This document shows, piece by piece, positions 1-34,476 of a DNA stretch of 35,992 bases (its first letter is position 1; every line of letters starts with the position of its first letter). Source of the stretch: Acidobacteriota bacterium. GTDB taxonomy: Bacteria > Acidobacteriota > Blastocatellia > Pyrinomonadales > Pyrinomonadaceae. The stretch is from NCBI GenBank assembly GCA_024640445.1, contig JAHEEZ010000003.1, positions 1 to 35,992 on the forward strand. The letters are read 5' to 3'. The notes below the pieces were generated by a model that saw only the letters and a program-made list of their open reading frames with translations, was not told where the DNA came from and made no database searches. The position numbers and the translations under genes are program-made.

Positions 1-57
1 GTAAACGGGCGGGCTAAACGTTCAAGCTGACCCACCCGTAAACGGGCGGGCTAAACG
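1..57 (-). repeat. Two copies of a GTTTAGCC hairpin repeat; the first is truncated by the window edge
   Basis: gtaaacgggcgggctaaacg occurs at 1-20 and 38-57. The complete unit on the minus strand (57..31) is CGTTTAGCCCGCCCGTTTACGGGTGGG, with the internal palindrome CCCGTttACGGG. Confidence 0.85.
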
Positions 58-66
58 GTGTGCGAA

Positions 67-1770
67 CTACTGAGCCCCGCCCGGAGGGGCCTTTCTGGGG
101 ATCTTGCCGTCCATCATCGCCGTCTGGTAAACGAAGGCCGCCATTATGACTGCATTCCGTTTTAGGTCTTCAGGCTGAAGACGGTCGTAGTTGTCCTGGT
201 TAGAGTGGTGCGTGCGTGTCGAATACTCGATCGGGTCCTGTATGAACTGGAATCCCGGAAGTCCGATGCCGTCAAAAGAAAGGTGGTCCGTACCGCCTGT
301 GTTTTCGAGCGTCAGCGTGGAGACTCCCCATTCGCCGAACGGCTGCATCCACTGCCTGAATATGGGTGCGACCTCGGAATTGCCCTGCAGGTAAACCCCT
401 CGGAACTGTCCGGTGCCGTTGTCCATGTTGTAGTACGCGGAGAATCTGTTGTAATCCGGCTGGGTGACCAGCTTGCCTCCGCTTCCGCCGCCGAGCAGTC
501 TCGCGAGACGTCCTCCGCCTCCCTCGACAGCGCCGAAGTGCTGTTTAACGTACGCTTGTGATCCGTTCAGCCCCTGCTCCTCACCGCTCCAAAGTCCTAC
601 GCGGATCGTTCTGCGCGGCTTGAGGCCGGTTGCCATCAATATGCGGACCGCTTCCATTGCAACGGCACATCCGGCTCCGTTGTCTGTAGCGCCCCCGGCG
701 GAATGCCACGAATCGAGGTGGCCGCCGAGCATCACGATCTCGTCCTTGAGGGTCGGGTCTGTACCCGGGATCTCAGCGACCGTGTTGTAGCCCATCAGGT
801 CGTCGTCGTAGTAACGCGTCTTGATATTGACGGTCATCGTCACATCAGTGCCGGTGTCCATCATCCTGACGATCCGGTTGTAATCTTCTGTCGCCATCGT
901 CATCTGCGGCAGCATATGCGATTCGGCTTCCTTCGACCACGCGCTCAGTCGTCCGCCGAAAATGTCCTCGATCGACTTCGGTGGGTCCCCTGCTACAGCA
1001 GCCCCCGAAACGAATACTGTTCCGCCGCTGCCGTTGGAGCTATTGTCCACCATGACCGCCGCGCCTTCATCGATAAGCATGTTCATCGCTTGCGCTTGAA
1101 GGGCGCGCTGTTTCATAAATTCCTGGAACTGCGGCGAGTTCGGGTCAAATCTGTTGCCGCCGCCCCTGCGCGGAGCTAAGGCCGGATCAGGAGCATCTGC
1201 CATCTTAAGGAGGTCCTCGGCGGTGAAGCGCTTGCCCATCCCGTCAAAGTCCGCCTTGATCTCCCTTTCATTCCCGACAAATACGATCGCGCCTTTCAGC
1301 TTGCCTTTGTATTTTGCCAGGTCTTCTTCGGTCTTGACGTCCATCTTGATGACCGGTCCGGTGACCGCTCCGTCGGTGGACGGCGACCACGCCTTGGGAT
1401 ATGCGATAACGGGCTGTCCCTGTGGTTCAGTGATCTGAGCCGAGAACTCTTCAAGTGACCAACCTCTCCCCCACGGGCCCCAAGCCTCGAGCTTGGCGTT
1501 CTTCAATCCCCACGAAGCCATCGTATCGCGGGTCCACTCGTTCGCCCTCTTCATGTTCGGCGAATTGGTCAATCTTCCGCCGATGACATCAGCGAGGTAA
1601 CTCATGGTCTTCATCACCTGTGAATTCTCGCCGGTTCCTTCAGCTTTGATCTTGTCAATTACTTCTTGCGGCGCTTCATAGATCTCCACTTTTGGCGTGC
1701 GTGCAAACACAGCCATGGGAAGGATCAGGGCGTAAAGCATAAACGCCGCCGTGATCTTACGTCGTAGCAT
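67..1770 (-). CDS. M28-family Zn-dependent peptidase with signal peptide and PA-like insertion
   Basis: 567 aa; hydrophobic N-terminus; motifs GGHLDSWHSAGGATDNGAG, SGEEQGLNGS, GGTDHLSFDGIGLPGFQFIQDP and THHSNQDNYDRL. Confidence 0.9.
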   Translation of the reverse strand: MLRRKITAAFMLYALILPMAVFARTPKVEIYEAPQEVIDKIKAEGTGENSQVMKTMSYLADVIGGRLTNSPNMKRANEWTRDTMASWGLKNAKLEAWGPWGRGWSLEEFSAQITEPQGQPVIAYPKAWSPSTDGAVTGPVIKMDVKTEEDLAKYKGKLKGAIVFVGNEREIKADFDGMGKRFTAEDLLKMADAPDPALAPRRGGGNRFDPNSPQFQEFMKQRALQAQAMNMLIDEGAAVMVDNSSNGSGGTVFVSGAAVAGDPPKSIEDIFGGRLSAWSKEAESHMLPQMTMATEDYNRIVRMMDTGTDVTMTVNIKTRYYDDDLMGYNTVAEIPGTDPTLKDEIVMLGGHLDSWHSAGGATDNGAGCAVAMEAVRILMATGLKPRRTIRVGLWSGEEQGLNGSQAYVKQHFGAVEGGGGRLARLLGGGSGGKLVTQPDYNRFSAYYNMDNGTGQFRGVYLQGNSEVAPIFRQWMQPFGEWGVSTLTLENTGGTDHLSFDGIGLPGFQFIQDPIEYSTRTHHSNQDNYDRLQPEDLKRNAVIMAAFVYQTAMMDGKIPRKAPPGGAQ

Positions 1771-6428: not shown

Positions 6429-6527
6429 TGGCGGAGGCGTGTGGGAATCGAACCCACCTGAGCTTACTCTCGCAATCTCACAGACGGTTTTGAAGACCGC
6501 GCCGTTCACCAGAACGGATTCGCCTCC
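6429..6527 (-). tRNA. selC: tRNA-Sec (anticodon UCA)
   Basis: Minus strand GGAGGCGA-AT-CCGTTC-TGGT-GAACGG-C-GCGGT-CTTCAAA-ACCGT-(long variable arm TGAGATTGC-GAGA-GTAAGCTCA)-GTGGG-TTCGATT-CCCAC-ACGCCTCC-G-CCA. 6-bp D-stem with 4-nt loop, long variable arm and encoded CCA; layout matches E. coli selC. Confidence 0.93.
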
Positions 6528-31882: not shown

Positions 31883-31891
31883 AAATTATAA
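31883..31891 (-). promoter_or_regulatory. Extended -10 (TGTTATAAT family) directly upstream of yacG
   Basis: Minus strand CTGTTATAATTTCCCCGAA-ATG: TATAAT ends 9 nt before the start codon. Confidence 0.45.
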
Positions 31892-31896
31892 CAGAA

Positions 31897-31931
31897 GACA
31901 GGAGATAGGAGACAGGAGACGGACGACAGGG
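31897..31931. repeat. Heptamer tandem repeat (GAYAGGA-type), five units
   Basis: GACAGGA GATAGGA GACAGGA GACGGAC GACAGGG. Confidence 0.75.
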
Positions 31932-32270
31932 CGGATCGTTCGACCCACTTTAGTTTGTCGTCACAGAAGATATTCTCTGCGTCTTGGCTCCACTGAGGGA
32001 TTCTCTCTTTTGGCGGGCCACCCACATTGGCAAGAAAGGACATCCCGTTAAGGTGCAAAGCCGCAGAGGAAGAGAAGCCGGATCAGTGAGCCGGAACTGC
32101 TTACACAACAACGACAGGGCTTGTGTCCGCTCGATGCACCAAAGGACCCGCCGTCAAATACTATCGATCCGCCCGACTTTTGGTGTAAGCTATTCCGTGT
32201 CCGGCGGACGAACATTTGTGCTGTGAATACCGTAACTTGTGCGGCGGGTGACGCTAAGGAAACAAGAAAG

Positions 32271-33332
32271 ATGTCAGACTACAAGAAAAAGATAGAAGAG
32301 TTTCAACGTGAGGCAAAGAAGAAGGCGGGCGCGCTGGACGAACAGTTCGGAATATCGGACCGTATCGGCGAAGGCGTGAAGGCGGCCTCTGAAACCGCGA
32401 AGAAAGGGGCGGAAACCCTAAAGGGCGGCGTTGACCGGATAAAGTCCGAGGCCGAAAAGTCACCGACGGGAAAACGCGTCGTAGAAGCAGCCGAGGGTAC
32501 CTACGAGACAGCTGAAAAGACCTTCAAGTCTGCTGAAGGAAAGGCTAAGGAAACTGCGAAGAAAGCCTGGGAGGCAAGCGAGCCGGTTCGGGACAAGGCT
32601 GAGGAAACAGCCGGTGAGGTGTTTGACTCTGCTTCGCGATCCGCCGGAGACGCATTCAAGGGGGCAAGTGACATGGCGGGGGAGTTTTTCGGCGAGACCC
32701 GGAAGACGTTTGAGTCGACGGCGTCTCGTGTAACGAATGCCCTGGGACTTGGGATCAGCTGGACCCGCACTATCGATTCCGCCGCACGTGCCGCACGGCG
32801 TACCGGCGAATGGATCGCAGAACGGCCTGCACAGGCGGCGGCGACCGGAGTTTCAGTGGTTGTCGGCGCAGGTCTCGGCGTCGTCTTTACAGGACTCAGT
32901 TCTCATTGGTTATTCAACTCTGCGCTGCCGGCGTGGTCCGTCAAGAAACTGTCCGGACTCTTTAATGACCACCTGAAGGAACAGGAACGGCTTATGAGCG
33001 AAGGCAATCTCGACAAGGCAGAAGCCGACAAGCTGAAATTCGAACGTGATATCGCAAAATACGTTGGAGCTCCTTTGCTCGGAGCATTCTCGTTCGCTTC
33101 CGGCGCGGTGATGATGACGAACATCGTCAACCCCAAGACGATCACGGGAGCCCCGATCGATTGGATAATCGGCGGGAATCCGTTGCTTGAAGGTGTTTGG
33201 TTCTTTGGCAACGGGATGGTCTGCTTCAAGACAAGCTATGATCTGTTTATGATCTCGCTCCAGGATGATGCGGACGTACAGAGGGTCGTTAAGGAGATCA
33301 AAGGGCTTTTGCCACAGGCGTCCGCCGCATGA
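32271..33332 (+). CDS. LEA/apolipoprotein-like amphipathic-repeat protein with C-terminal hydrophobic domain
   Basis: 353 aa from MSDYKKKIEEF; Lys/Glu/Ala-rich repeats (KGAETLKGGVDRIKSEAEKS..., YETAEKTFKSAEGKAKETAKKAWEASEPVRDKAEETAGEVF), then hydrophobic segments. Confidence 0.7.
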   Translation: MSDYKKKIEEFQREAKKKAGALDEQFGISDRIGEGVKAASETAKKGAETLKGGVDRIKSEAEKSPTGKRVVEAAEGTYETAEKTFKSAEGKAKETAKKAWEASEPVRDKAEETAGEVFDSASRSAGDAFKGASDMAGEFFGETRKTFESTASRVTNALGLGISWTRTIDSAARAARRTGEWIAERPAQAAATGVSVVVGAGLGVVFTGLSSHWLFNSALPAWSVKKLSGLFNDHLKEQERLMSEGNLDKAEADKLKFERDIAKYVGAPLLGAFSFASGAVMMTNIVNPKTITGAPIDWIIGGNPLLEGVWFFGNGMVCFKTSYDLFMISLQDDADVQRVVKEIKGLLPQASAA

Positions 33333-33354: not shown

Positions 33355-33430
33355 CGTTTAGCCGGCCCATTTATGGGTCGGTTTTATTTTGATCGAATAT
33401 CATAGTTTAGCCGACCCATTCATGGGTGGG
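33355..33430 (+). repeat. Second pair of the GTTTAGCC hairpin repeat
   Basis: CGTTTAGCCGGCCCATTTATGGGTCGG (33355-33381) and GTTTAGCCGACCCATTCATGGGTGGG (33405-33430). Confidence 0.85.
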
Positions 33431-33444
33431 ATCATCTTGTTCTG

Positions 33445-34476
33445 TCAATACGCAAGCCTGATCGGAAACGGGACAAAACACAGAATAAAGATCACAAGCG
33501 TCGCGAATGCGATCACTCTTCGTTTCATATCCAGAGGTTCAGTGTCCAAAGGCCTTGGATGCCCTACTCTGAGCATGACCCCCAATAGCACGGCGATGAG
33601 AAATCCGGACGGGCTGTTGTAAACCCAAAAACCGACGATCGCGAATGTCGCCATCAGGACGAATGCAACTCTTCCGGTCCAGCGGTGCACCACCGGACCG
33701 AAAATGGCGTAGTTCGCGTGGCCTCCATCCAATTGTCCGGAAGGAATAAGGTTGAGCGCCGTTACAAGCAAACCCATCCAGGAGGCATAGTAGAAGGCAT
33801 TCGGGACCGCGTACTGAAGGTTGACGCCGAACAGCCACGCCATTCCCTGCATGTACAGAGGATCAGAAAAATAGATCTGGCTTTGGTACATCGACGCCTG
33901 AGCAGGCGACAGTTGATCCATCGTAATAAGAGCGATGACAGACACCGGGATCAGCGCGACAAAACCCGCGATCGGACCGGCGACACCTATGTCGAACACC
34001 GCCTTGCGTGAAGGCATCGGCGCAAGGATCTTTATGAACGCGCCAAGCGTTCCCGCCGGTCCGATCACAGGGGGTGTAGGAATGAAGAACGGAAGAGTCG
34101 CGTGTACGCGATAAATTCGGCACGCAACATAGTGACCGGCTTCATGGGCCGTGAGTATGAACAGCAATGAAGCCGCAAAGCTAACTGAATAAGAAAGCCC
34201 TTGCGGAACCGTCAGCAGGTACGTCACAGACGCCTGAAGCAGGTGGGTGTAATACTGGGGCAGCAAGAATACCGCGAGCCAGGAATCGGGTGCCGTACCG
34301 TCTATCAACTCAGGGAATACGGTCAATCTTCCAAATGGCTCGAGAGTCGAAGCCAACATCGCAGTGAAAAACGTGGCCAAAAGAAGCAGGCCGTGCTTGA
34401 TCCACGTCGCGCGGGTCGGTTTCATAGACAAACGCTGGTTATCTTTCGGTATTGTGAAGGGAAATTGATCTGACAT
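33445..34476 (-). CDS. Site-2 protease-like (M50) membrane metalloprotease
   Basis: 343 aa, multi-TM; TAHEAGHYVACRIYRV (HExxH) and LNLIPSGQLDGGHANYAIFG. Confidence 0.9.
   Translation of the reverse strand: MSDQFPFTIPKDNQRLSMKPTRATWIKHGLLLLATFFTAMLASTLEPFGRLTVFPELIDGTAPDSWLAVFLLPQYYTHLLQASVTYLLTVPQGLSYSVSFAASLLFILTAHEAGHYVACRIYRVHATLPFFIPTPPVIGPAGTLGAFIKILAPMPSRKAVFDIGVAGPIAGFVALIPVSVIALITMDQLSPAQASMYQSQIYFSDPLYMQGMAWLFGVNLQYAVPNAFYYASWMGLLVTALNLIPSGQLDGGHANYAIFGPVVHRWTGRVAFVLMATFAIVGFWVYNSPSGFLIAVLLGVMLRVGHPRPLDTEPLDMKRRVIAFATLVIFILCFVPFPIRLAY

Follow-up and report, generated by a model that had tools for sequence, protein, structure and literature searches.

REPs headed by GTAG or GTGG, together with a REP-associated tyrosine transposase (RAYT, or TnpA-REP), make up the systems known as REPtrons (Nunvar 2010, PMC2817692; Di Nocera 2013, PMC3733652; PMC8266576). 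For TnpA-REP, the GTAG head has been suggested to help choose the cut site (PMC8266576). Other arrangements have also been described. These include the REPINs (Bertels and Rainey 2011, PMC3116915) and CGTC-tagged REPs, which have been reported without a dedicated transposase (PMC3733652). In the Acidobacteria there are TIRYT/TIR elements, that is, transposases flanked by TIRs (PMC3733652), and class 3 Y1 proteins with CnGA-foot repeats, which are also found in other groups (PMC6006769).

Here, we analyze a repeat family seen at both ends of a 35,992-nucleotide stretch of DNA (the window) from a member of the Pyrinomonadaceae in the phylum Acidobacteriota. With the GTAG/GTGG REPtrons it shares a short head followed by a hairpin with a small loop, many extragenic copies and imperfect copies with compensating stem changes; inverted units flank related RAYTs in other genomes, and here one lies on the assembled, downstream side of the RAYT. 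It differs from them in its host lineage, in tandem arrays of head and 5' arm, in a RAYT stop codon that lies inside the flanking unit, and in the head. The GTAG super-family is defined by a head of GTAG, GTGG or GGAG, whereas here and at related RAYTs the head is GTTTAG. Seven inverted pairs of 53 bp in a congener (G002) are shared with the REPINs, whereas the genome of the window has no REPINs and holds only single units and direct pairs, besides the arrays. The acidobacterial TIRYT/TIR and class 3 systems have in common with this family the Y1 transposases, the phylum and the dispersed flanking repeats, but they carry terminal inverted repeats or a CnGA foot in place of the GTTTAG head and the NF047646-type RAYT found here. 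The CGTC-tagged REPs are likewise tagged extragenic palindromes, with a different tag.

We suggest, with a probability of about 0.85, that the units are a REP/REPIN population of short hairpins, non-autonomous passengers that are dispersed by a GTTTAG-type RAYT. The kind of system is thus known, while the GTTTAG head and the half-unit arrays look new. The open-access literature on RAYTs in Acidobacteria, on GTTTAG and on REPs in Pyrinomonadaceae does not describe the family, which is weak evidence on this point. We tentatively propose a further tagged REP super-family, the GTTTAG-REPs, which may have their own RAYT clade in the Pyrinomonadaceae, a hexamer head, spread also as head-plus-half-stem arrays, and perhaps a transposase with a cut-site rule different from that of the GTAG systems. 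The findings widen the range of RAYT-REP systems to a little-studied soil lineage, where the recognition head is a different one.

The repeat unit and its hairpin

Four units of the family are found in the window:

33356..33381, + strand: REP unit 1, GTTTAG head and hairpin CCGGCCCAT-tt-ATGGGTCGG of 9 bp with one G-T pair
33405..33430, + strand: REP unit 2, GTTTAG head and hairpin CCGACCCAT-tc-ATGGGTGGG with a G-G mismatch at the third pair from the base
31..56, - strand: REP unit behind the M28 peptidase gene, GTTTAGCCCGCCCGTTTACGGGTGGG
1..19, - strand: REP unit truncated by the contig end, GTTTAGCCCGCCCGTTTAC

The sequences and coordinates that an earlier note on this DNA had given for units 1 and 2 are right. 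A 12-nt core is found as CCCATTTATGGG at 33366-33377 and CCCATTCATGGG at 33415-33426, both on the + strand, and as CCCGTTTACGGG at 35-46 on the - strand. This core alone is within chance in the window, with three matches against 1.08 expected at up to one mismatch, and 10 of 100 shuffled windows reach three matches. We accept the repeat family because the longer unit, with its 50 genome copies, decides the matter; the core is unconvincing when taken alone. In each 26-nt unit, the GTTTAG head is followed by a 9-bp stem that is closed by a two-base loop (TT or TC). All nine pairs form in unit 1, one of them as a G-T wobble, and unit 2, with its mismatch at pair 9-24, is an imperfect copy. As single-strand DNA, the window units fold with energies of -7.3, -5.4 and -8.0 kcal/mol.

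The 3.71-Mb genome contains 50 exact matches to the pattern TTTAGCCNNCCCRTTYAYGGG, divided equally between the strands (25 each), and none to the reversed control pattern. The pattern permitted mixed combinations of arms; nonetheless, all 50 copies have matched arms. The compensatory stem change proposed from the window is thereby borne out, since CCCG goes with CGGG and CCCA with TGGG in 50 of 50 genome copies. Beyond this, the GTTTAG head, the 9-bp stem and two further covarying stem pairs have come to light. The head is invariant in all 33 distinct variants from four genomes, an invariance that is partly due to selection, as the search patterns required TTTAGCC; the same head is also borne by other stems at other RAYTs.

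Three stem pairs change on both sides among the 33 variants, namely 9-24 (CG, GC, AU), 10-23 (AU, GC, CG, with GU) and 14-19 (AU, GC), and 94.6% of the stem cells are paired. Two-sided changes amount to 29 cells, compared with 9.5 +/- 3.0 in shuffles, and the covariation score is 0.306, compared with 0.128 after shuffling and no more than 0.087 after sliding. The count of pairs that change on both sides (3) is not above that in shuffles (2.5), and the strength of the signal lies in the coupled cells. In choosing copies, the head was fixed and pair 14-19 was limited to classes R and Y with the coupling left free, no restriction was placed on either side of pairs 9-24 and 10-23, and arrays without a 3' arm were excluded. 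Since the copies share ancestry, these counts overstate the number of independent events. In one congener (G004), the stem is CCACCCC/GGGGTGG, a separate replacement of two pairs. The earlier note had held that a lack of significant covariation across copies would speak against its folded element; the two-sided coupling stands well above both the shuffled and the slid controls.

Copy numbers across seven genomes of the genus are 50, 36 (G002), 5, 1, 0, 0 and 0, so that the repeat is present in four of the seven, and it is absent from 112 genomes of other genera in the Pyrinomonadaceae. Tandem arrays with periods of 17, 20 and 25 bp, at L066 (577-680), L029 and L018 (1500-1570), repeat the head and the 5' arm without a complete 3' arm. 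These arrays are REP half-units. G002 holds seven elements of exactly 53 bp, each made of two inverted units with heads outward and one base between them, besides two looser inverted pairs. A second family, GTTTAGAGCARYGC, is also dispersed, with 34 exact copies in G002, 17 in G006 and 5 in G001, and it has its own compensating stem variants in G006.

Insertion sites at gene ends

The genes that border the units in the window are as follows:

32121..33332, + strand: 'LEA-like' ORF from the ORF list, upstream neighbour of units 1 and 2; conservation among relatives starts at about 32271 (ATG, MSDYKKK)
33445..34476, - strand: peptidase family M50 gene, convergent neighbour (PF02163, 58 bits)
67..1770, - strand: peptidase family M28 gene, 3' end facing the first REP pair (PF04389, 114.4 bits)

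Of the two names that the earlier note gave to the neighbours of units 1 and 2, M50 agrees with Pfam, but the 'LEA-like' gene has no match in Pfam or NCBIfam. It had also placed the repeat at gene 3' ends and regarded random occurrence inside coding sequence as evidence to the contrary. By a home-made codon-usage gene caller trained on the window, one of 38 testable copies is inside a predicted gene and three overlap an edge, while random positions are inside in 81% of cases. The copies are thus extragenic and lie behind 3' ends, and random coding placement is not seen. Their flanking genes are convergent in 18 cases, tandem in 17 and divergent in 2 (15, 15 and 0 in G002), compared with 15 convergent, 46 tandem and 10 divergent in a small set of background intergenes. 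At tandem sites in the genome of the window, nine copies have the same orientation and eight the opposite one. A pyrimidine pair just 5' of the head is enriched (33 of 49, 13 expected). T-runs after the hairpin (at least five T in the next 8 nt) are rare, being found in just 2 of 48 copies here and in 3 of 36 in G002. An intrinsic terminator is ruled out by this rarity.

In five relatives (G001, G002, G003, G005 and G006), the repeat is absent from the LEA-like/M50 intergene, which is nearly empty in G005 and G006 and contains other sequence in G001, G002 and G003. It is also absent from the M28 gene end in G001, G002, G003, G004 and G006. Since these orthologous sites lack the repeat, the window copies are lineage-specific insertions and not conserved control elements. 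A conserved element of the LEA-like/M50 or M28 genes is ruled out by the empty or differently filled sites. Other palindromes (GCCGGCTAAAGCCGGC, AGGCTTTAGCCT) are found at the same gene ends in congeners, at L168 and L169 in the LEA-like/M50 intergene of G001 and G002 and at L289 at the M28 end of G001. Because congeners hold other palindromes there, both gene ends look like repeat hot spots.

The transposase and the probable mode of spread

The earlier note had advised looking for a RAYT in the same genome, and one is present. Among ten Y1 transposase genes, the C330 protein is a RAYT by NF047646 (109.6 bits, cut-off 80). Its HUH motif and the Tyr of the catalytic region are conserved, and its best PDB match is TnpA-REP (4ER8). 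The reading frame ends inside an inverted unit of the window's family, with the TAA in the loop, and six more GTTTAGCC heads follow downstream in an array of head and 5' arm with a period of about 17 bp. Half of the flanking pair is seen, as the inverted unit is downstream and the contig ends before the upstream flank, for which a DNA search gave no match. In the flanks fetched for the other nine Y1 genes, no unit of the family was found.

The nearest relatives of the C330 RAYT in the Pyrinomonadaceae have GTTTAG hairpins upstream (direct) and downstream (inverted), mostly on both sides. Their stems differ (AGCAGCGC/GCGCTG, AAGCGGGC/GCCCGC, AGGCGGGC/GCCCGCC), and in all, the GTTTAG head with different stems flanks about ten related RAYTs. 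The flanks at L084 and L130 fit this arrangement less well, and the downstream side of L143 is masked. Among more distant RAYTs, most are without the head. On a 62-row RAYT tree, the GTTTAG label clusters, with 4 changes compared with 10.2 when shuffled and 0 of 500 shuffles as low, although the deep forks of the tree are open and the clustering falls short of strict monophyly. The flanking inverted repeat supplies the RAYT stop codon, either as TAA in the loop (L066) or within the CTAAAC head (L078, L082). The recognition head is thus linked to the transposase clade across genera. A natural alternative head that tracks the RAYT clade makes the rule that the head guides the cut site (PMC8266576) testable.

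We propose the following mechanism for dispersal by the RAYT. The hairpin would fold when its strand is exposed as single-stranded DNA, the lagging-strand template being one example. After reading the head and the stem-loop, the RAYT would use its HUH/tyrosine centre to cut next to the hairpin and would join it to another site. Insertions would persist where they are least harmful, between genes and behind 3' ends, and very seldom between divergent promoters. If the units influence mRNA 3' ends, this would be a secondary effect. That the units work in a REP-like manner is well supported. The analysis establishes the repeat family, its covariation, its placement, the lineage-specific occupancy and the physical linkage to one RAYT, and we infer that the C330 RAYT probably cuts and moves these copies, or once did so.

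A covarying hairpin behind gene 3' ends could also be an RNA structure, a terminator or stabilizer of mRNA that selection retains because it acts on host genes. Effects of REPs on mRNA stability and termination have been reported elsewhere (PMC6006769), and TTTTATTTT happens to come directly after window unit 1. We consider this explanation quite unlikely, as it conflicts with the rarity of T-runs, the orthologous genes that do without the element, the near-equal orientations at tandem sites and the lack of an Rfam match (tRNA-Sec is the sole match over the window), and it leaves the conserved, unpaired GTTTAG head unexplained. Because the orthologous gene pairs of five relatives and the M28 end are without the repeat, and there is no T-run, the constraint on the stem more probably reflects a transposase that reads the hairpin in single-stranded DNA than service to neighbouring genes. 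Thus, convincingly covarying hairpins at gene ends need not be RNA regulators of those genes. The idea of a folded, selected and possibly undescribed element family stands as to structural constraint but not as to kind, since REP/REPIN plus RAYT is well described; to judge from the literature, it is only this family and its head that have not been described.

It is very unlikely that the units have spread by another route (slippage, recombination between tandem copies, or as the MITE of a different element) and that their position next to a RAYT is coincidence. Copies usually lie behind genes, so that one behind a RAYT could be chance, but chance does not explain the recurrence of the GTTTAG head, with different stems, at about ten related RAYTs. 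Direct pairs, head-plus-half-stem arrays and tandem copies of 20-25 bp show that slippage or recombination also acts, yet slippage is unable to scatter copies across a genome, and the seven REPINs of G002 are all exactly 53 bp long. G002 itself is a puzzle that fits this alternative, as its 36 copies and REPINs are accompanied by no RAYT that is more than 41% identical to that of C330; dispersal by a RAYT would then require that the gene was lost, that it falls in an assembly gap or that another RAYT acts. Finally, the palindromes, being dispersed and intergenic, might be read as duplexes by gyrase, a nucleoid protein or a replication or segregation system, as enterobacterial REPs do bind host proteins (PMC6006769). 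Such a role is extremely unlikely, since copy number is erratic among congeners, unlike that of a core chromosomal signal, and conservation is stronger in the asymmetric head than in the stem.

Copy-number differences and other features of the window

Contig C244 carries a stretch 97% identical to the window, with one unit where the window has two. This points to copy numbers that vary between strains or between duplicates, and a MAG can contain more than one strain. Several contigs end at or near REP copies, namely the window at position 1, C244, C291, C346, C354, C360 and C382. Some of these contigs of the MAG overlap one another and differ in the number of copies, as would be seen if the assembly had broken at the repeats. 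The window also contains a selenocysteine tRNA gene at 6433-6527 (Rfam RF01852, 73.2 bits) and, at 31891-31930, a heptamer tandem repeat, ACAGGAG, in 5.7 copies, which recurs at dozens of sites in this genome and in congeners.
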